DNA from: Parietaria judaica | Lineage: Eukaryota; Streptophyta; Magnoliopsida; Rosales; Urticaceae | Direction of reading: 5' to 3' | Length of the DNA: 64,000 nt | Assembly (NCBI GenBank): GCA_954871525.1 | Contig: OX940868.1 | Location: 21,757,056-21,821,055, forward strand | Shown: one piece after another, positions 13,652 to 43,924 of the stretch | Layout of the letters: the number at the start of each line of letters is the position of its first letter | How positions within the stretch are numbered: the stretch's first letter is position 1 | Notes under the pieces: model-generated | Seen by the model: the letters and a program-made list of their open reading frames with translations, nothing else | The model's database searches: none | What the model was told of the DNA's origin: nothing | Translations under genes and position numbers: made by a program

Positions 13652-16062
13652 TCATCTTTTAAGTGAATCCCAAAGGATTCCAAGATCCACATTACCTCCT
13701 GAAACAATAATCCCAATGTTCTTACACTTCTTCCAAGCCAAATTTGCCTTAAAACTCTCGGATAAAACCGCAGCCAAACCGATCGCTCCGCTCGGCTCCA
13801 CCGCAACTTTTAGAATTTCGTAACAGAGCTTCATGGCTGCTAATATCTCGTCATCATCCACGGTAATGACATCGTCGACGAGATCGCGAACTACAGGCCT
13901 GCTCAATCAAAAATATATTTTTATGTTAAATAATATAGAACTATATAAGATACGAGAATATTTTTGGTCTCTAAAATCGAGATTTCATTCGGTAGATCAC
14001 GTCGAAATTTGTTTCGTGCAATACCATGTAAGGTTTCCAAGAAATGCTCGAAGCCCATCGGCGATAGTGTCGGTTTCCGGCAATGTGATGATTTTTCCAG
14101 CGGCTTTGGACAGAGCTGCGTCGTTAGCTCCTTTAGGCTCAGCAGCGAATATGCGGATTTTTGGGTTGATCGCCTTGGCAGCCAATGCCACTCCCGATAT
14201 TAAACCGCCTCCTACATTTTGTTCGGTCGCAGCCTTTTCCATAAAAACAATTTTAAAAAAAGTTGAAAACGTGATTCTAAAAAAATGCTAAAAACCGACC
14301 ACTTATCGGAACTACAATAGTGTCGATTTCCGGGGCTTGCTCCAAAAGCTCCAACGATATAGTTCCTTGCCCACTACAAGATTTTTTTTTACACAAAGGC
14401 ATGAGTATCAACATAAGCGAATAACGGATATTAATTACGATTTTTTAGTTGAAATCTCGGTTTTAGATCTATCCATATACTCTTGCAAGTTTTGACGGAA
14501 GATGTTATACCTTATGATACGGCGGTCGTTATAAGGATGCAGAAGAACCGCCCCGGTTTCTTCCAACACCTTGGCGGCAGTGCTCTCCCGTGACTGCAAA
14601 TTGGGCTCACTCCAAATGATCTGACCTCCGTACCGGACAACGTTTTCAACTTTGCATCTTGGAGCATTTTTGGGCACCACAATGTATGCAGGAATTTGTC
14701 GCAACTTTGCGGCCAACGCCAGCGCTGCGGCGTGATTCCCACTGTATAATCAGGAGGAAATATTCTTAGGCCCCGGAAATTCCCCGATAGTTTTATGATT
14801 AAAAACGAGTGAACCTAAACGAGTAACGAGTTAACCTGCTATGAGTAACAACTCCTCTCGCAGCCTCGTCGTCGGTGAGCGAAAACACGGCATTGCAAGC
14901 ACCCCGGAACTTAAAAGCGCCGCTACACAATCAATTGCACAAGTACAAAAAATAAATAAATAAAATACATAAAATTGACAAGGATTCATACGCAAGAGAG
15001 TCCAAAAGCTGTTAATTGCCATTATTAGTCACACATAGGGGTGAGCATGGGTTGGGTTGGGCCGCCCCGATGCTTTTTATGGACCCGACCCAATCACTTC
15101 GGGTTCCTAAAAAAAAGCCCAATCCGACCCAAAATTTTTTAATGCCCGAACCAAACCGACCCGTTAAAAATCGAGTTGGGTTGGTTTGGGTCGCCATGGC
15201 CCGATTAATTAAAATTTAATCTTATATAACCAAAAATAATATGAAAAAATGCATCAATGTAACTCAAAATTCAAGTAAAAATACCCCAAATAAATTTAAT
15301 CAAACAAACATACACTAAACAATGTAAAACATGAAAATGGGAGATTGAGTGGTCTTTAATTGTAAATAAAATTGAGAATGAAAATTTTTAAAAGACTAAA
15401 GATTACACTACTTGAATAAAAATTAATATGAAATATATATTTATTATATTGGTCGGGTCGGAGACCCCGACCCGACCCAAGGTTTTGGACCCGACCCCGA
15501 CCCGAATAATAGTCGGGTCCGGCCCGATCCGACCCAATTTTGAGCGGGTTAGATTGGGCGGGTTAGATTGGGGTCGAGTCTCTAACGGATTGGGTTGGAC
15601 CATCGGGTTGGGTCTAAAATGCTCACCGCTAGTCACACATTCACAAATTATGCAAATCTTACCATTTGGGTATCTTTTTGAGGAACTCGCGGCGAAAGTT
15701 CTCATGTTATTAATTTTGGTGTGTACTTATGTTAAATCTTTGGTGGCGAAAGTAGTACATTTCGCTTGAGTGTACACAGTTATCAGAAAAATCACAAAGC
15801 TCGAATCTTTACTCAATGCGAACTATAGAGATTGGAAAGCCAAAAATCTGATTATTGTTTTTACCCATGAAGTGTTGGTGATTGAGGCTCTCACTCACCC
15901 CTTTTGGAAGAGCTCGCATTTGAAGAAGAGGTGCTTCCTAGAGAGAAGATTGAGAGCTTCAGAGGTCAACAATGGCGTCTTGTGTATGAATGGCTTGATT
16001 CGAGCTTCGGCTTCTTTGATCGAACCCAAATCAGCTGCATACTTTCCCTCTCTCGTTTCCAT
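13652..16062 (-). CDS. SR: Serine racemase (PLP fold type II)
   Basis: Six exons (minus): 16062-15899, 14922-14836, 14741-14511, 14373-14300, 14211-14025, 13898-13652; 329 aa, matching the usual plant length of about 330. The protein aligns along its length with plant serine racemases (Arabidopsis At4g11640). PLP lysine is K59 in the GGAFKFRGA motif, split across the exon 1/2 border. The Gly-rich phosphate loop SGGGLISG is at about 185-192, and VEPSGAIGLAAV and SGGNVDLG lie near the C-terminus. Family activity: interconversion of L- and D-serine and dehydration of serine to pyruvate, PLP- and divalent-cation-dependent; cytosolic, with no targeting peptide seen. Intron 1 (14923-15898) is large because a 596-bp hAT-type MITE sits in it. 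Frame is kept through all joints. Confidence 0.93.
15036..15631. mobile_element. hAT-type MITE inside serine racemase intron 1
   Basis: 596 bp flanked by perfect 8-bp repeats GTCACACA (15028-15035 and 15632-15639). Ends: TAGGGGTGAGCAT and ATGCTCACCGCTA, a 13-bp inverted repeat with one mismatch. The interior is rich in GGGTTGGG and GACCCGACCC words and does not encode transposase. Same end type as the elements at 1404, 22382 and 32014. It lies wholly within an intron, so it should not alter the protein. Confidence 0.92.
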
Positions 16063-22373: not shown

Positions 22374-22899
22374 TTGGAAATTGGGGGTGAACAAAAGAAA
22401 CCGTAAACCGGATTTTTAATCGAAAACCGATCAAATCAATACCGATTAAACCGCAATCGCTTTTAAAGCGGTTAAAACCGAATATACTGAGAAAAAAACC
22501 GAATACCGAATTAGGTTAAAACGGAGTTTTCGGTTTTAATGTGAAAACCGCAACCGGTTACCCGGTTTTCCCGCTTAAACTTAATCTAATATTATATTTA
22601 TTATTTTATATTTACCATACCTATCAAGTATCAACACATCAATAAACTTTTCTTATCTACTCTCTCGGTGTAATATTGTGTAATATTAGTATTTAGTAAT
22701 CCGTTTATGTGTAATAATTTATAATATTAACATTTAGTAGTATGTTTATGTTTAATACTAGTAGTCAATTTATAGAAATGGGGATATTAATTTAAAAGCG
22801 GTAAATGTGTGCAAAAAACCGATAATACCGCAACCAAACACCGAATACCGATTATACGGTAAATGTGGTTTTCATCTTTAAAGATAAAGTATTCGTTAT

Positions 22900-24257
22900 T
22901 GATGCCGATCCAATATTCATTTATTAAAGTTTATTTATTATTTATTATTATTTCCTCTTATTTTCATTAATAGGGATATTAGGGTTTTTTTTTTTGGGAA
23001 TCGTCTAAAACCTAGGGCTATATAGGCTTTGTTTGCTATTTTTATAGCAGCCTTTTTTTTATTAATAAAATTCGAGCTTTGCTCTGGAAACCGAGTATCA
23101 GAGTAAATGGTATCAGAGCAACTCGTTTCTGTGCAGATGCACCGAAGAAGCTAGCCGTTCACGAAGCTTTCGTAGAGGATATGGTGAGACGAGAAGAGGT
23201 CGACGGATTGCGCGCTCAGGTGGAATTGCTGACCCGTCAGATGGCTGCACTAGTGCAGAATCAAACGGAGCAACGACGCCGAGACGAGTCCGACACTAAG
23301 GACGACCAAGCCAACCTGTTCGGGTAGAATTTTGGACGTGCGGCGGTCCCGGAAGATGCACTAAGGGTAGCGGTGTTCGAAGTGGCTAGCCCGGAGTACG
23401 ACGAATCGACGTATGATGAGGCGGAGCACGGAGAGGCCGTGTACGACGAATCAGTTTACAGCGATACAGAGTATGACAAACCTGTGTACGATGAATATGA
23501 CGAAGCCGTTTACGACGAGACAAAATGCGCCCGAAATCGTGTATGACGAGGCCGTGTACGAGGACAACGTCTGCACCGAGAAAGAGGAGTCTGTGTATGA
23601 TGAGGTCGGGCTTGAGGAGGCCAAAGAGGACAAGGAGCGATTTGATAGTGACACGACTATATTTCGTGTTGTTCATATGTCGTGTTTGACCGCAACGGTG
23701 AAGATAGATGTTTTGCGGAGCCCGAGCAATCTTTTCCCGGAAACAAAGCTCCAGACTCGCATTGAGAAAGAAGTGGAAGAATCCAAAATTATTTTTGGGT
23801 TAAAATCCAGGAAGATGCCCGAGGAAGAAGAACGACATGACAAGGTCCACGTGAAGCCAATAACTAAACGTGCGAAGGAGCCACCCGACAAGCTTCTCGA
23901 TATAACGATGGTGACGCCCAACTCCGACGAACCACCCCAGTTCACTACCAACCCGCCCCAAGAAATTCGAGGACGAATTTTCTCAACACCGAGAGAATGA
24001 TGCCGATCCAATATTCATTTATTTAAGTTTATTTATTATTTATTATTATTATTTCCTCTTATTTTCATTAATAGGGATATTAGGGTTAGTTGCTATTTTG
24101 TGGGAATCGTCTAAAACCTAGGGTTATATAGGCTTTGTTTGCTATTTTTATAAGCAGCCTTTTTTTTTTATTAATAAAATTCGAGCTTTGCTCTGGAAAC
24201 CGAGGATTCTACTCGTTGAGACGTGCTCTTATTTTCCCGTAATCTTACTCTACATCA
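22900..24257 (+). mobile_element. Small non-autonomous LTR retrotransposon (gag-like remnant only)
   Basis: Perfect 5-bp target duplication GTTAT (22895-22899 and 24258-24262). The 3' LTR is 23998-24257, from TGATGCCGATCC to CTACATCA. The 5' LTR is 22900 to about 23107 and lacks about 50 bases near its end. A perfect primer-binding site for initiator-Met tRNA, TGGTATCAGAGC, is at 23108-23119. The internal region is about 0.9 kb and ends with TTCGAGGACGAA, a word I associate with the 3' end of plant Ty3-type elements. No protease, reverse transcriptase or integrase. Best called a Ty3-related non-autonomous element (LARD/TR-GAG-like). Confidence 0.9.
23079..24000 (+). pseudogene. Broken gag-like reading frame of the nested LTR element
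   Basis: Starts in the 5' LTR end and reads a short coiled-coil-like segment (MVRREEVDGLRAQVELLTRQ) to a TAG at 23325-23327. The same frame continues past the stop into an acidic, Tyr-Asp-Glu-rich repeat (many YDE triplets, 23385-23523), then a shift to another frame carries the YDE repeat on to the stop at 23998-24000. No zinc knuckle or enzyme domain is seen. The YDE-rich part resembles acidic linkers of plant Ty3 polyproteins, but that match is from memory and uncertain. Confidence 0.6.
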
Positions 24258-24349
24258 GTTATCATTTCTAAAATACCGAAATGCGGTATTCGGTGTATTA
24301 TTTGTCAAAAACCACACCTAATACTGGCTTGTTCACCCCTATTGGAAAT

Positions 24350-30889: not shown

Positions 30890-33800
30890 ATGGCTGAGAA
30901 GCTTCTAGCTTTGGCTTGTATCCGTGGCAGCGGCGATGTCGGCGGAGAGAGACTGTCGCCGCCCCGGCCACGCTACCCGTCGATGCCGAAATACCCGAAG
31001 GGGGCGTCTGCATCGGCATCACCGGCGGTGAGAAACGGCGAAGAGGAGATCACGACGGAGGCAACCGCGTTGTTGGCGGTGACGGGGATGACGTGCGCGG
31101 CCTGCGCTGGGTCGGTGGAGAAGGCCGTGAAGCGGCTTCCGGGGATCCGGGAGGCCGTGGTGGACGTGCTCAACGGCCGAGCTCAAGTCCTCTTCTATCC
31201 ACAATTCGTCAACGTAAGTCATCTCTTTGATCATCAAGATCGTTCGTATCAAGATGCTAGGGTTGTCTTGGGATCAAATTACGTTTTAATTTGTGATGAT
31301 ATATCAGGAAGTAACGTATTTAAATGGTGATATGTATCAAATTATTAAATTATACGTACGGACATTGGAAAAAAAAAATATAGCTGATCAATTGTTTAAA
31401 CCTTTATTTCGAGGTTTTGTATGATAAATGTTTCACTAATTAATAAGTTAAAATACTCGACCATTGATTTCATGCTTTCAGGAGGAGACGATCCGCGAGA
31501 CAATTGAAGACGCCGGCTTCGAGGCTGCGATTATCAACGACCGCGCGCTTACGCCGTCACGTTCTCAAGATCTTGGGGGCGATCGGAGCGGAGGGAGAGA
31601 GGAGCACAGAAAGGGAGAGATCAAGCACTACAAAAGGTTGTTCATGGTGAGCTTGATCTTTACTGTCCCAATATTCTTGACCTCCATGGTGTTCATGTAC
31701 ATCCCCGGGATCAAGCACGTCCTGGACAAGAAAGTCGTCAACATGTTGACTGTCGGAGAGACTCTCCGGTGGGTTCTCTCGACGCCCGTCCAGTTCGTCA
31801 TCGGGTGGCGATTCTACACTGGTTCTTACTATGCCCTAAGACGCGGCTCTGCGAACATGGATGTCTTGATCGCTCTCGGAACAAACGCCGCTTATTTCTA
31901 TTCAGTTTACTCCGTTCTGAGAGCTTCCACGTCAGAGAAGTTCGAAGGGACCGACTTCTTCGAGACGAGCTCGATGTTGATATCGTTCATTCTCCTCGGA
32001 AAGTACTTGGAGGTAGGGGTGAACAATTGAGCCTTTGGTTTCGATTTTTATGAGCATTAGTACCAAAAACAACATTTTAAAAATAAATTACACCCAACGC
32101 GGAAATTTTTAGGTTAAAATCCGTTTTTTAAATTAACGAATTTTCTCTTCATATTCGTTTTTTATCGAATTTTGACATTAATAAAAAAACGATCATTCAT
32201 ATTATTTTTCTTCCCAAATCTAAATTGTTTATTTTTACGCCTCTACTTGGAGGTGCTGGCCAAAGGGAAAACCTCCGATGCCATAGCGAAGCTGATGGAC
32301 TTGACACCGGCAACGGCGATACTACTGCGGCTTGACGGTGAAGGCAAGATTATCGGCGAGGAGGAGATCGATAGCCATCGGATTCAGAAGGGCAACGTGA
32401 TCAAGGTCGTCCCAGGGGCTAAAGTTGCGGCTGACGGGGTGGTGATTTGGGGGCAGAGCCACGTGAGTGAGAGTATGATCACTGGAGAGGCCAGGCCCGT
32501 GGCAAAGAGGAGCGGGGACATGGTGATCGGCGGTACGGTGAATGAGAACGGGGTGTTGCACGTGCGGGCAACAAACGTGGGGTCAGAGAGCGCATTGTCG
32601 CAGATTGTGAGACTCGTGGAGTCAGCGCAGATGGCCAAGGCTCCCGTGCAGAAACTCGCTGACCGGATTTCTAAATTCTTCGTACCTTTGGTATGTCTTT
32701 TACTACAAGAAGTGTTATGAATAACCCGAAAAATATAGGAACTAGTAAAACTAACCTGTTTTCGCTTACCTTGTTGAAAAACCGGTACCGATTCTCAAAA
32801 TCCGATAAGTTTAACATGCCATCTTGTATATTCCCAAGATAGCGGTTTATATTACCATTTTTGTTAAATTCATAGTTCAATCAGTCGCAAAAAATTGAAA
32901 AACGCACACCAATTTCGGACAGGTGATTGTTCTATCTTTCTCAACTTGGCTCGCATGGTTTTTGGCCGGCAAATTCCACGGCTACCCAAAATCGTGGATT
33001 CCGTCTTCCATGGACAGCTTCGAGCTTGCTCTCCAATTTGGCATATCGGTGATGGTAATTGCTTGCCCGTGCGCGCTCGGCTTGGCCACACCCACCGCAG
33101 TAATGGTTGGCACCGGCGTTGGCGCTTCTCAGGGAGTGCTCATCAAAGGAGGCCGAGCATTGGAGAGTGCCCATAAGGTCAAATTCAATCCATTTACATG
33201 ATCAAGCTTCAATGAGTCCTTTGATTAATGTTTGAATGTTGTGTAGGTGAATTGCATAGTGTTTGACAAGACAGGAACACTGACAATTGGGAAGCCCGTG
33301 GTGGTCAACACAAGGCTCTTGAAAAGCATGGCACTTTCCGACTTCTACGAGCTCGTTGCGGCCACGGAGGTAGCTAATTACTTCTTTCTCACGTTCTCTT
33401 TGTGCTTCAAGCATTACGAAATTCGGTCACACACATATAAGCTTAGAGCTACATATAAGTAAAGTCTTCGTAGCGGTTCCAATGAATTAGGCTTCACAAC
33501 TCAACAATTTGATTACTTGATTCTCGAATACTCGTGTCTTGTTCGAGCATTATTGAATAGGAAATTCATATACATTCTTGTAATGCTTCTTCTTTGAAGG
33601 TAAATAGCGAGCACCCTTTGGGCAAGGCAATGGTGGAGTACGCCAAGAGGTTCCGAGAAGACGAGGATAATCCCGTCTGGCCAGAAGCAAGAGAGTTCGT
33701 GTCAATCACCGGCTATGGAGTGAAGGCAACGGTGCGAGGCAAGAAAGTCATGGTCGGCAACAAGAGCTTGATGTCCGGATACAGCATCGCAATCCCCGCT

Positions 33801-34820
33801 GACGCTGAGGAGATGCTGGCCGAGGCCGAAGCGTTGGTTCAGACGGCAGTTCTTGTGTCCATCGACGGGGAAATCACAGGTGTTGTGGCCGTGTCCGACC
33901 CACTCAAGCCAGGGGCCAAGGAGGTGATCTCGATGCTGAAGTCTATGGGAGTAAAGAGCATCATGGTGACCGGCGACAATTGGGGCACCGCGAAGGCGAT
34001 AGCGAAGGAGGTCGGGATTGAGGATGAGTCTATTCTTGCGGAGGCTAGGCCCGAGCGGAAAGCGGAGAGAGTGAAGGAATTGCAGGTATACTTGCAAGAG
34101 AAAGACGACTAGAATCAGTGAATAACAAAATATGTGAACGGATCTAAAGGATCTAAGATCCGTTCACATATTTTATTGTTCACTGATCTACTCGTTAGAC
34201 TTAAAAATAATTTGTTTAAATTGATTAAAATAAAAAATATTTATGTTATACATATTTAGATTATATTAGACATATCTAAATTGTCATTATGTTATAAGTG
34301 AGATATTAATTAATAAAAATTAAGACGGAATTAGGAAAACGAATGACTTTCGGCTTCTTCAACTTGAGCCATTGCTCTCACATAATATCTTTCTTTTTGG
34401 TAGATCTCGGGTTACACGGTGGCAATGGTAGGAGACGGGATCAACGACTCGCCCGCGTTGGTGGCAGCCGACGTGGGAATGGCGATCGGCGCCGGCACCG
34501 ACATAGCCATCGAGGCGGCGGACATCGTCCTGATGAAGAGCAACTTGGAGGACGTCATCACGGCCATTGACCTCTCGAGGTCAACGTTCTCCCGGATCAG
34601 GTTAAACTACATCTGGGCACTCGGATACAATGTCCTCGGAATCCCGATAGCCGCTGGAGTCCTCTTCCCGTCCACCGGATTCCGGCTGCCTCCGTGGATT
34701 GCTGGAGCAGCCATGGCGGCGTCGTCGGTGAGCGTGGTGTGTTGCTCTTTGCTGCTGAAGTACTACAAGAGGCCTAAAGGGTTGGATGGTCTTAGCATCC
34801 GTGGGATTAGGGTTGAGTAG
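30890..34820 (+). CDS. HMA5: Copper-transporting P1B-ATPase, HMA5 type, copy A (lacks second metal-binding domain)
   Basis: Seven exons: 30890-31213, 31482-32012, 32253-32690, 32923-33177, 33247-33369, 33600-34085, 34404-34820; 857 aa against 1002 in copy B. HMA5 exports Cu(I) using ATP; in Arabidopsis it serves root copper detoxification. Seen: one N-terminal metal-binding domain (GMTCAAC, C69 and C72), transmembrane CPC motif (IACPCALG), TGEA actuator loop, DKTGT with phosphorylated D523, SEHPL nucleotide motif, GDGIND. Odd points: the second metal-binding domain is absent, the reading passing from the end of the first domain to a short Gly/Arg linker and the first membrane region; and two introns (32013-32252, 32691-32922) interrupt what is one exon in copy B, the first being a hAT-type insertion. 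If that insertion is not spliced, translation stops soon after LGKYLE. All catalytic motifs are intact, so a working pump is possible. Confidence 0.9.
32014..32245. mobile_element. hAT-type insertion in HMA5-A coding sequence, forming an intron
   Basis: 232 bp between perfect 8-bp repeats CTTGGAGG (32006-32013 and 32246-32253). The left end TAGGGGTGAACAATT matches the TIR family at 15036 and 22382; the right end (CGCCTCTA, with AAATTGTTTA further in) is a more diverged inverted copy. HMA5-B reads straight through this point ([10 protein letters not shown]). The target duplication's last G plus the element's first T make a 5' splice site GAG|GTAGGG, and the second duplication gives the 3' site TTGGAG|GTG. 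Removing 32013-32252 restores GAG GTG CTG GCC in frame. Confidence 0.85.
34114..34187. repeat. Small hairpin (32-bp arms) in the last HMA5-A intron
   Basis: Arms from ATCAGTGAATAACAAAATAT to its mirror match at 30 of 32 positions around a 10-base loop. HMA5-B has nothing like it at this position. Probably a very small foldback element. Confidence 0.75.
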
Positions 34821-38967: not shown

Positions 38968-41900
38968 ATGGGGAGTTCTAGTCCTGCTCCAAAGTGCATT
39001 CCATGGAGTTGCATTTGCATCGACGAGAGCCTCTGGACCGGTCCCGCCTCGCCCCGTCCACGGTATCCAGCAGTGCCAAGCCACCCCAAAGGCGCCGCCA
39101 GCTCCCCAGGGAAGGAGTCGCCTGGGCCGGCGCTGGCTTCGAGGGCGGTGTTCGGTGTAGGCGGGATGACTTGCTCGGCTTGCGCCGGTTCCGTGGAGAA
39201 AGCGATCAAGAGGCTTCCCGGGATCAGAGAAGCCGCGGTCGACGTGCTCAACAACAAGGCTCTTGTTCTTTATTATCCCAACTTTGTTAATGTGAGCTCT
39301 TTTCTCTCGTCAAATTAATTTCTTTTTTTTTTCTTTTTTGTTTGATATATATATATATATATATATACCATGTACTAATTTGAGTAAATCCCGATTCAAT
39401 TTTCATTCACATAACCACATACGACATAAAAAATACAATATTTTTCTTTGTATTAAATTATAATTATCTGTTAGTGTGTATGTGATTATATATATGTATT
39501 TATAAGCTAATAATATATTGTGGGAATATGAATATTGATATATCGTTTTACTTGGTATTAATATTTCAGCTAACTTGAACTTGCGTGTATTAATGCGTTA
39601 TGTTCGAGTTGTACAGGAAAGGAACCATTCCATCGTGATTGCCACTAGTATTAATGTAACGTCCAATAATAATAATATTAATAATAATTATTTTTTTGGA
39701 ATTTATAAAAATATATATATTGTCCGAAAAGCATGCTTTTACGAAAGGTTTTCTTACACACCAATCCCACTGAGATTAGAAGATTTACGGAATAAGTTTA
39801 GTGCTATAATGACATTTTGTTATTATTTTTTTCGTCCACCTTCTTTCCAATTCCATGCAAATCCTATCCCCATCGTAAAAATCAGGTGTACTTGGTAAAT
39901 TCACTACATAACTCTTTTAAAAAAAAATGGGATTCAGACTCAACGATACACAAAATTGTGTATATTTTTATGTAATCTTGATCGATGTTGTCAAACATAT
40001 TTTTTTTTACACTTTCTTTTAATGAATCTTATTACTCTTGTAATGCAAGTACATATAATATATATATATTTTTAGCTTATATTGCCTCTCCAACATGATC
40101 CACGTTTTAACCTCTAAAAATGGCTTGGTATATTCTGCTTTATCTGGAATTTATGTTCATATTTTTTCATACTTTTATCTATGAAAGTTTTTGTATTATT
40201 TTTTGGTATATTCTCTTGTTATTTCCCTATTTAGGAATATTAATGATATTTGGTCCCAAACGACAACACTTGTCTGGTTTCAGGAGGATATGCCCCACCT
40301 CCTCTTTACAGTTACACCATTTAGCATCGTTGACTTCATAAAGTTAACTTTTTTTTTAAATCTCTGTCCGTACTTATGTATTCGAATAATTTTCGTTTCT
40401 TTTCTCTTTTGAAGAAAAGTTTGGGACCAAATATCATTAATATTCCTAATGTATTCGAATGGTGGCTTGACATGGATTACAATAAATTCTCAATTAAATC
40501 CAATCAAAATAATTGTCTCCGTTCTTCTTTCTTTCGGTTATCGCAAGAATTCTACCGCGATAAAAATATAAAAGAAGAACGAGACTACTATTATTAGACT
40601 AATTCGAACGAAGATCGAATGTATGATCACTCTTACTTTGGTAGAAATTCCGAAATTATATACTAAAATATTATCGGGATTACACACCCGAGAAAGAAAG
40701 AAAAGAAATACAATCAAGATCATTATAGCCGTCGGATCGGGCTTAATCTTACTTAAGTCGAAACGACTTGTCATTATATCTTTCTTTGTCGTTTTGGGCT
40801 TTATAATTATTCTGATGCTGTGTAGCAAATATATTTGACCCATCCTAAAGTCAAACCATACAAATAATCATACTAATTAAATTAAATAACTCAGTATTAG
40901 CCTTTCCCTCTCTTTCATTATAGGAGGAGAAGATCCGGGAGGCAATCGAAGACGCCGGATTCGAAGCGACGATCACCGGAGAAGGACCGAGCTACGAGCG
41001 GTCAGTCCAAGTGTGTCGTATCCAAATCAACGGCATGACATGCACGTCTTGCTCGTCTACCATCGAGTCAGCCCTGTGCTCGCTCCGTGGCGTCCAAACT
41101 GCCCAAGTTGCCCTAGCCACCGAGGAAGCGCAGATCTCTTACGATCCCAAAACCCTAACCCCGGCCCAGCTCCTCCAAGTTATCGAGGACACGGGCTTTG
41201 AAGCCGTGCTGATCAGTGTCGGCGAGGACATAAGCAAAATTGATATCCAAGTCGATGGATTCAAAACCGACCACTCCCTCAAAGCTTTAGCATCCTCGCT
41301 TCAGTCCCTCCCCGGTGTTCACGAGATCGAGACATTCCTGGAGCTGAAGAAGATCTCGATATCTTACAAAGCGGATATGATCGGTCCAAGAACGTTCATT
41401 GAGGCCGTCGAATCATCTGGGTCGGGTCATTTCAAGGCTGTGATATTCCCCGACGACGATGGAGGCAGAGACAAGGCGAGGCAGAAGGAAATCCGGCAGT
41501 ACCGCAAGTGGTTCCTGTGGAGCTTGTTCTTCACCATTCCAGTGTTCCTCACCTCCATGGTGTTCATGTACATACCATGGATCAAGAAAATTCTCGACAT
41601 AAAGGTCGTCAACATGTTGACGGTAGGCGAGATTCTACGGTGGGAATTAGCCACCCCGGTTCAGTTCATTATTGGTCGGAGATTCTATGTCGGATCTTAC
41701 AAGGCTTTACGCCACGGCGCCCCGAACATGGACGTGTTGATCGCGTTAGGGACAAATGCAGCTTACTTCTACTCGGTCTACATTGTCTTGAGGGCTGCGA
41801 ATTCGAGAGACTTCGAAGGCACGGATTTCTTCGAGACGAGCGCTATGCTCATCACGTTCATACTTCTCGGGAAGTACTTGGAGGTTTTGGCAAAGGGAAA

Positions 41901-43924
41901 GACCTCGGAAGCTATAGCGAAGCTGATGAACTTGGCCCCGGAGACGGCACTTCTGCTGAGATTCGACGAGGAAGGGAATGTGGCGGGGGAGGAGGAGATC
42001 GACGGGCGATTGGTGCAGCGGAACGACGTGATCAAGGTCGTCCCGGGGGCGAAGGTGGCGTGCGATGGGCTGGTGGTGTGGGGGCAGAGCCACGTGAACG
42101 AGAGCATGATCACCGGCGAGGCAAGGCCGGTGGCGAAGCGGAAAGGCGAGATGGTGATCGGAGGGACGGTGAACGAGAACGGCGTGCTTCATGTTAAGGC
42201 GACGAGGGTCGGGGCGGAAAGCGCGCTCTCGCAGATAGTGAGGCTCGTCGAAGCGGCGCAGATGGCCAAGGCTCCGGTGCAGAAGTTCGCTGACCGGATC
42301 TCCAAATACTTCGTGCCAATGGTCATAGCGTTTTCGTTTGCTACTTGGCTTGCGTGGTTTTTGGCCGGGAAGTTGCGGAGCTATCCACGTTCGTGGATAC
42401 CGAACTCCATGGACAGCTTCGAGCTCGCCCTTCAGTTCGGTATCTCGGTAGTCGTCATTGCCTGCCCGTGCGCCTTAGGGCTGGCGACGCCCACCGCTGT
42501 CATGGTCGGGACCGGCGTCGGTGCGTCGCAAGGCGTCCTCATCAAAGGAGGCCAAGCTTTGGAAAGTGCTCACAAAGTACGTGTACCAATTATGAAAAAA
42601 GTCTCATGTCATGCATTATGCATGATTTCACTAAAGGAATGACCAAAACAGTAAATTTTACAGGTTAGTTGCATCGTCTTCGACAAGACCGGAACTCTCA
42701 CGGTCGGAAAACCCGTAGTTGTCAGCACAAGATTACTCGTCAAAAACATGACCCCTCGCGAATTCTACGAACTCGTCGCCGCGACAGAGGTATATACATT
42801 ATTTTGTATATTATAGCTTATATCAAATAAACCTATATATATTCTACAAACTATAACCCCTCCAAATTCATGCAATTCTTGTACCACAGGTTAACAGCGA
42901 ACACCCACTAGCGAAGGCCATGGTCGAGTACGCGAAGAAGACGAGAGAGCATGATCGCGAAGAGACCACAGCGTGGCCGGAGGCCCGAGGGTTCGAATCC
43001 CTCACCGGCCAGGGAGTGAAGGCCACGGTGAAGGCGAAGGAGATCCTCGTGGGAAACAAGAGCTTGATGACCGACAACAAAGTGGCCATTCCAGAGCAAG
43101 CCGAGGAGGCGCTCGAGGAGGCCGAAGCGAGTGCTCAAACCGGCGTGTTGGTTGCAATAGGTGGTGAAATCGCCGGAGTTGTGGCCATCTCCGACCCTTT
43201 GAAGCCTGGTGCTCGAGAGGCTATTGCGATACTGAAAGCGATGAAGATAAAGAGCATCATGGTCACTGGGGACAATTGGGGCACCGCTAAGTCTGTCGCC
43301 GGAGAAGTTGGGATCGAGACTTTCGTCGCCGAGGCCAGGCCGGAGCGTAAAGCTGAGTATGTCAAGGATTTGCAGGTATTTACCTCCATAGTTTATAAAT
43401 GGACTATTTAACTAATTTGCTTAATGCGTTTTGCAAAGGAAAACTAGAAAACTTTTTTCCTTCTTAGTTGCTTTTATAAGTATTGAACTTCTTGCTCGTT
43501 ATAGGCCTCAGGCCACACGGTGGCGATGGTAGGGGACGGGATCAACGATTCACCGGCACTGGTTGCGGCTGACGTAGGGATGGCGATCGGCGCCGGCACT
43601 GACATCGCCATCGAGGCAGCGGATATAGTACTCATGAAGAGTAATTTGGAGGATGTCATCACCGCCATTGACCTCTCGAGGTCAACGTTTTCTCGGATCA
43701 GATTGAACTACATTTGGGCGATGGGCTATAACGTCCTTGGAATCCCGATAGCCGCCGGAGTTCTCTTCCCGTCCACCGGGTTCAGGTTGCCCCCATGGAT
43801 CGCCGGAGCGGCCATGGCGGCATCGTCGGTGAGCGTTGTCTGTTGCTCTTTGTTGCTGAGGAACTATAGGAGACCCAAGAAGTTGGACAACCTTGAGATA
43901 AGAGGGATTCAAGTTGAAGAGTGA
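38968..43924 (+). CDS. HMA5: Copper-transporting P1B-ATPase, HMA5 type, copy B (full length)
   Basis: Five exons: 38968-39291, 40924-42576, 42664-42789, 42890-43375, 43505-43924; 1002 aa, the usual HMA5 length. Domains in order: metal-binding domain 1 (GMTCSAC, C69 and C72), metal-binding domain 2 (GMTCTSC, C148 and C151), a degenerate third ferredoxin-like unit without Cys pair (about 180-250), then the eight-helix P1B core with CPC (IACPCALG), TGEA, DKTGT (D666), SEHPL and GDGIND. Expected to export Cu(I). The first and fourth exons are exactly the length of their counterparts in copy A (324 and 486 bases), confirming a tandem duplication. Intron 1 is long (1632 bp) and contains a 31-bp perfect inverted repeat. 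Transcribed towards the theta GST. Confidence 0.95.
40231..40449. repeat. Perfect 31-bp inverted repeat in HMA5-B intron 1
   Basis: The arm 40231-40261 (TTAGGAATATTAATGATATT and on) and its exact reverse complement at 40419-40449 flank a 157-base loop. Pairing does not extend inwards. No target duplication found. Confidence 0.85.

Follow-up and report, generated by a model that had tools for sequence, protein, structure and literature searches.

How new introns originate in plants is an open question, and the locus described here poses it in concrete form: has a transposon that landed in an exon of a copper ATPase gene become a lasting intron of that gene? The gene, HMA5-A (positions 30890–34820, forward strand), lies in a window of 64,000 nucleotides, the whole stretch of DNA that was analysed (C10:21757056–21821055 of a 538.7-Mb assembly). 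An 857-aa open frame, Pfam domains and sequence motifs predict that it encodes an HMA5-type copper P1B-ATPase. Its predicted exons (30890–31213, 31482–32012, 32253–32690, 32923–33177, 33247–33369, 33600–34085 and 34404–34820) are separated by introns that are all in phase 0. The protein scores above the Pfam cut-off for E1-E2_ATPase, Hydrolase and one HMA domain, and the motifs DKTGT, CPC, TGE, HP, TGDN and GDGIND are present, so that the P1B core motif and an HMA domain occur together. Relative to HMA5-B, its tandem paralogue, and to other HMA5 proteins, the second HMA (metal-binding) domain is deleted; the loss is in frame, lies within exon 2 (31482–32012) and is common to the copy of the gene found on contig C5, and the related protein P0238 keeps this domain with its CxxC already broken (GMTCTSSVE). 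Note also a near-perfect hairpin in the last intron (34114–34187; its two arms, 32 nt each and 94% complementary, stand 10 nt apart), which is probably another small element.

Exons 2 and 3 are separated by 232 bp enclosed, exactly as the original prediction had described, between two identical copies of the 8-bp word CTTGGAGG (32006–32013 and 32246–32253, forward strand). The insert proper (32014–32245, forward strand) has no coding capacity, and the GC content is 26.7% in the insert, 52.4% in exon 2 and 57.3% in exon 3. Its left end reads TAGGGGTGAACA and its right end, read inward from outside, TAGAGGCGTAAA, with 4 mismatches out of 12 between the two; the right end of the C5 insert, TAGGGGAGTAAA, has 3 mismatches out of 12. 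The terminal inverted repeats are thus of the hAT type, though imperfect on both C10 and C5. The end had been described as shared with other elements of the window, and it is: the left-end 12-mer has one further exact match in the window (24330–24341), and a scan of the whole window for end pairs flanked by an exact 8-bp duplication returned two elements besides the insert (15036–15631 and 22382–24341), the shifted-flank control yielding 1 match in 8000. The 12-mer is weak by itself, with 7 matches in the window at up to 2 mismatches for a shuffle mean of 3.50 (4 of 100 shuffles reach 7), so the hAT-type case is carried by the ends together with the duplication. The genome-wide search for other members of the element gave at least two matches, a lower bound, both of which are the HMA5-A insertion itself, one here and one at the same site on C5; the multiple copies typical of a MITE did not appear in that search, and family membership is therefore read from the ends and the duplication. 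These features make it likely that the 232-bp insert is a hAT-type miniature transposon.

The predicted new intron (32013–32252, forward strand, 240 bp, phase 0) has the borders GAG^GTAGGG ... CTACTTGGAG^GTG, where ^ marks the predicted cut; the last G of the first duplication copy is its first base, and the 3' splice site is predicted within the second copy, as TTGGAG^G. Its removal brings back the pre-insertion codons exactly, including the 10-residue stretch named beforehand, and leaves the 857-aa frame intact. As was also foreseen, with the insert kept the frame reads KYLEVGVNN and then stops, within six codons, so that translation ends after 290 residues. Out of 16 donor/acceptor pairs tried, four keep HMA5-A open, and only 32013/32252 yields the ancestral 10-residue junction stretch. 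The original prediction had both splice sites supplied by the target duplication. This holds fully for the acceptor, which lies entirely inside the second duplication copy, but only in part for the donor, of which the duplication contributes the G, the following TAGGG being the element's own end; the splice sites are thus drawn, as in Introners, from the duplication and an element end. A branch-like word, CTAAA (32220–32224, forward strand), precedes the predicted acceptor by about 30 nt and is the same in the C5 copy. The predicted acceptor is weak: a G at position -3 is rare among plant acceptors, and GAG does not close any of the other introns predicted in HMA5-A and HMA5-B, nine in all.

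To see whether the intron is derived, we compared HMA5-A with 355 plant protein sequences taken from three lists, each holding the best 120 of 6081, 7929 and 418, respectively. Among these matches listed, 346 of the 355 run uninterrupted through the insert site, as judged at the protein level with a loose pattern. Ninety of the 346 also read past FVPLV into the non-exon sequence of the next intron, according to a filter of our own: four are NCBI-annotated models (P0008, P0303, P0339 and P0343), and the 86 others, derived from contigs, look like unspliced genomic frames. The nine listed relatives that are not continuous (P0068, P0081, P0102, P0108, P0109, P0112, P0113, P0116 and P0127) comprise, in the excerpts, five without an upstream stretch and four without the words searched for; no insertion at this codon boundary was seen in these excerpts. 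Two of them, the Citrus sinensis models P0113 and P0116, omit some 20 residues and resume at EVLAKGK or VLAKGK, as would be expected of a cryptic acceptor at the same codon boundary; in P0116, it is another point upstream that is joined to VLAKGK.

Cannabis, Morus, Parasponia and Ulmus are the nearest relatives among the matches listed, and by them the source plant is an urticalean rosid. In a tree of 17 rows (Rosa, Theobroma and A. lyrata were left out of the 20 chosen), P0238 is the sister of HMA5-A (support 97/97), with 87.1% identity over the 278 columns that they share, and P0082 is the sister of HMA5-B (support 99/96). P0238 is a 449-aa frame on a 2037-base contig, which reads through the insert site and then into the next intron, and a scan of prokaryote genome contigs found no relative of it. 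It is known at the protein level and might represent a transcript from which only some introns had been removed; at that level, it is the nearest HMA5-A orthologue among the matches listed and is insert-free. Since P0238 and 346 of the 355 listed relatives read through the site, the intron appears to be derived. The absence from orthologues and outgroups applies at the protein level and among the matches listed. The original prediction had named, as evidence against it, outgroup genes in number with an intron of other sequence at the same place; no such pattern was seen among the relatives listed.

HMA5-B (38968–43924, forward strand; exons 38968–39291, 40924–42576, 42664–42789, 42890–43375 and 43505–43924) had been put forward as the unoccupied paralogue that makes this a clean case. 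Its coding sequence is indeed continuous at the insert point, where a single CTTGGAGG stands without insert (41877–41884, forward strand). However, HMA5-B also lacks the intron that HMA5-A has at 32691–32922, the place of which falls in the HMA5-B exon 40924–42576. P0082 and many other relatives read into this neighbouring intron, which indicates that HMA5-B lost it, and Cannabis and Ulmus proteins occur in both the A and the B groups of the tree, so the A/B duplication is old. An old duplicate that has lost a neighbouring intron is a poor empty-site control, and we downgraded HMA5-B in this role; comparison with P0238 and with the C5 copy serves better. The C5 copy of HMA5-B is likewise continuous over the 40924–42576 stretch.

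The C5 match (C5:20020894–20021119), the one further match listed in the assembly, is 84% identical to the insert over its full length and sits at the same site in a second HMA5-A gene. Both duplication copies, the donor GAG^GTAGGG, the acceptor CTACTTGGAG^GTG and CTAAA are identical to those on C10, and splicing in silico gives an 856-aa open frame, free of stops and frameshifts. Pairing across the two contigs extends to HMA5-B and to further HMA loci, which suggests that these are homeologous or otherwise duplicated segments. Between C5 and C10, the introns of HMA5-A display, in order, 16/260, 31/234 (the insert), 17/230, 8/69, 54/227 and 22/274 mismatches, and the exons from 8/417 to 25/438. 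Within the insert, 27 of 163 aligned bases differ in the interior and 4 of 71 at the ends (Fisher p=0.022), a value that depends on boundaries set after the alignment had been inspected. The HMA5-A pair has, by the NG86 method, a dN of 0.0083 and a dS of 0.128 (855 codons), close to the insert-free HMA5-B pair (dN 0.0053, dS 0.128). At a rate of 7e-9 per site and year, a dS of 0.128 would place the C5/C10 split at roughly 9 million years. Upstream of the insert, we counted 7 nonsynonymous differences per 645.2 sites and 21 synonymous differences per 203.8 sites; downstream, the counts are 9 per 1300.8 and 52 per 415.2 (p=1.3e-24). The exons beyond the insert are under strong purifying selection in both insert-bearing copies.

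Altogether, a hAT-type insertion acting as a predicted intron, as originally proposed, is the best reading, and the C5 copy, the selection downstream and the insert-free P0238 add to its support. We hold it to be very probable, on the sequence data at hand, that the insert is a hAT miniature transposon that has been spliced as an intron, through splice sites of the duplicated target, since before C5 and C10 separated. The sequence of events may be pictured as follows. The target ended in AGG and the element begins with T, so that the first duplication copy and the element end together read AG^GTAGGG, the predicted donor; the second copy reads CTTGGAG^G, the predicted acceptor, and a cut at both sites returns the coding sequence exactly to its pre-insertion state. 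Use of the two sites by the spliceosome would be aided by the low GC content, by CTAAA and by the T-rich stretch that precedes the acceptor. The insertion would have occurred after the split from the plant lineage of P0238 and before the C5/C10 duplication, and would then have been kept in both copies, the interior of the insert drifting and the exons staying constrained.

Several other readings of the locus have to be weighed. Were the insertion a disabling one, the insert would stay in the mRNA, HMA5-A would be dead or dying and the intron-like borders would be a matter of luck. The stop that follows within six codons of a retained insert and the weak GAG acceptor are compatible with this, and a length-preserving GT..AG cut would arise by chance at about 6.3% of the HMA5-A coding positions (162/2567). 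Protein change is also faster on the A branch: HMA5-A departs from near-invariant columns at 8 of 148 positions in the stretch shared with P0238 (5 for HMA5-B, 2 for P0238, 3 for P0082, 3 for P0001 and 4 for P0008), and the tree gives it a branch of double the length found for P0238 (0.16 versus 0.076), so that some relaxation is possible. Over the whole protein, however, its departures (13/396) are like those of HMA5-B (10/416), Cannabis (11/380) and Ulmus (12/386), and the divergence of the insert between C5 and C10 (31/234) is too high for an insertion that has only just occurred or for gene conversion in the recent past. An insert kept in the message would leave the downstream exons untranslated, and these should then not be conserved; the strong purifying selection that acts on them in both copies, which bear no stop or frameshift, would be difficult to account for if the insert remained in the mRNA. 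We rejected the pseudogene reading on account of this selection in both copies, and regard a disabling insertion as very unlikely; in our reading, HMA5-A is a working gene that evolves faster.

It is nearly as improbable, in our judgement, that the insert is spliced out mainly at other sites, for example from a donor at 32019, which would add Val-Gly, or to an acceptor at 32291, which would drop 13 residues, with an open but altered protein as the result. Four donor/acceptor pairs do keep the frame open, the GAG acceptor is weak and the element end offers a second GT at 32019. Against this, only 32013/32252 restores the ancestral stretch, which 346 of the 355 listed relatives keep in some form; the 32019 donor, GGG^GTGAAC, fits the usual donor consensus less well than GAG^GTAGGG; and the loss of 13 residues would delete a conserved stretch. 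Least credible is an old HMA5 intron that has disappeared from the other genes, the transposon having merely landed in it or at its border, and we consider it extremely unlikely. Losses do happen here, since HMA5-B has lost another ancestral intron (at the place of 32691–32922), and PMC4256211 warns that apparent intron gains in plants are often repeated losses. However, the whole predicted intron consists of the element and one duplication copy, with no remainder for an older intron, and very many losses would be needed given that P0238 and the listed relatives read through the site; it is on these read-through relatives that we rejected an ancient intron.

If the insert is, as we favor, a transposon turned intron, its ends may matter beyond this gene. 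The first T of such an element would complete a GT wherever the target ends in G, and the last A would complete an AG wherever the target begins with G. Computed over 11114 positions in seven coding stretches of the window, an element with T...A ends would give an exactly removable GT..AG intron at 6.04% of positions, versus 2.1% if neither end base helped; such ends would thus roughly triple the share of suitable coding positions. We think it reasonably probable, with less assurance than for the insert itself, that hAT elements of the form TAGGGG...CCCCTA are ready-made intron makers in plants and that the HMA5-A insertion became a lasting intron of a working gene. Two other elements of the window have the same kind of ends, one of 1960 bp with the duplication TTGGAAAT (22382–24341) and one of 596 bp with the duplication GTCACACA (15036–15631). 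The former is absent from C5, where TTGGAAAT stands once, a clean empty site which indicates that this kind of element has been mobile here; it contains a 195-aa frame with no Pfam match. Genome-wide, the pattern AGGTAGGGGTGARCA (AGG followed by TAGGGGTGARCA) was found at 39 places, versus 3 for the reversed pattern, in a scan that covered the AGG-flanked class (the mirror class would correspond to TGYTCACCCCTAGGT). A partner end and a duplication within one mismatch accompany 29 of the 39, 24 of them with an exact duplication (control 2/975), and two of the listed places, L025 and L026, are the opposite ends of a single element. Elements sharing only such ends are thus common in the genome. 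The other 10 had no partner in the stretch examined. Among the 29 places with a partner end, only the two in HMA5-A are flanked on either side by an open frame of over 150 codons, so HMA5-A is not part of a burst. A 584-bp element of the same class, L036 (G000 C5:31483901), has joined flanks that are open over 134 and 108 codons. It was rejected as a sister case: the protein has no Pfam match, and at least 115 matches across the genome show that the host frame is a dispersed repeat.

How does this insertion compare with known systems? Maize Ds elements inserted in exons are reportedly spliced out as introns (the names attached to this work being Dennis 1988, Wessler 1991 and Giroux 1994), examples being Adh1-Fm335 and sh2 alleles. 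The likeness is close, as it includes the hAT superfamily, the 8-bp duplication, the insertion in an exon and the removal by splicing, which is predicted in HMA5-A. The reading originally offered, a hAT insertion that serves as an intron in a flowering plant, is supported but is not the first plant case of its kind, given the maize Ds introns; Introners provide a further precedent. The difference is that the maize Ds introns are mutant alleles of a crop, whereas the HMA5-A insert is common to two diverged gene copies, the code beyond it having been conserved since. Ds itself belongs to the hAT superfamily and has an 8-bp duplication and the ends C/TAGGGATGAAA...TTTCATCCCTA, according to PMC3260210. 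Introners, as portrayed by Gozashti et al. 2022 (PMC9860276), resemble the HMA5-A insert in being non-autonomous DNA elements with a target duplication, in drawing their splice sites wholly or partly from that duplication and in leaving mRNA length unchanged. They form families of 5 to more than 2,000 intronic copies per genome, and that survey states that none was found in land plants. The HMA5-A insert, in contrast, has one other detectable copy (a lower bound), which is the same event on C5, and our genome search, whose counts are lower bounds, did not return many near-identical intronic copies.

Among flowering plants, two of five introns gained in rice segmental duplicates resemble transposable elements, namely Ty1-copia and the CACTA-like Rim2, according to Lin et al. 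2006 (PMC1779517), and a term for direct repeats was not found in its main text. HMA5-A shares with them an intron gain and a transposable-element-like sequence; it differs in that its ends, duplication and splice sites can be read base by base. In the model of intron gain by tandem duplication at AGGT (PMC3443670), both splice sites likewise derive from an AG^GT-type exon word that has been duplicated, but the 8-bp duplication in HMA5-A encloses 232 bp of foreign, hAT-ended sequence rather than duplicated exon. A new intron that stems from a MITE and takes its two splice sites from the duplication is not described in the passages considered of the plant MITE papers PMC12595863, PMC8227079 and PMC5454002, within a search of open-licence literature. 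According to the 2014 survey PMC4256211, individual alleles were the sole in vivo evidence in plants for a transposon turned intron, and none of the fixed intron gains in plants had been linked to the structure of a transposon. In HMA5-A, the ends, the duplication, the splice sites, an insert-free orthologue and a second copy are all legible, and the selection downstream has been measured. If our reading is correct, the insertion has outlived a later duplication as a lasting intron, a case that this survey gave as unrecorded. What is unusual about HMA5-A is that a predicted intron of hAT origin is old and has been retained in a flowering plant, and that its history can be read.
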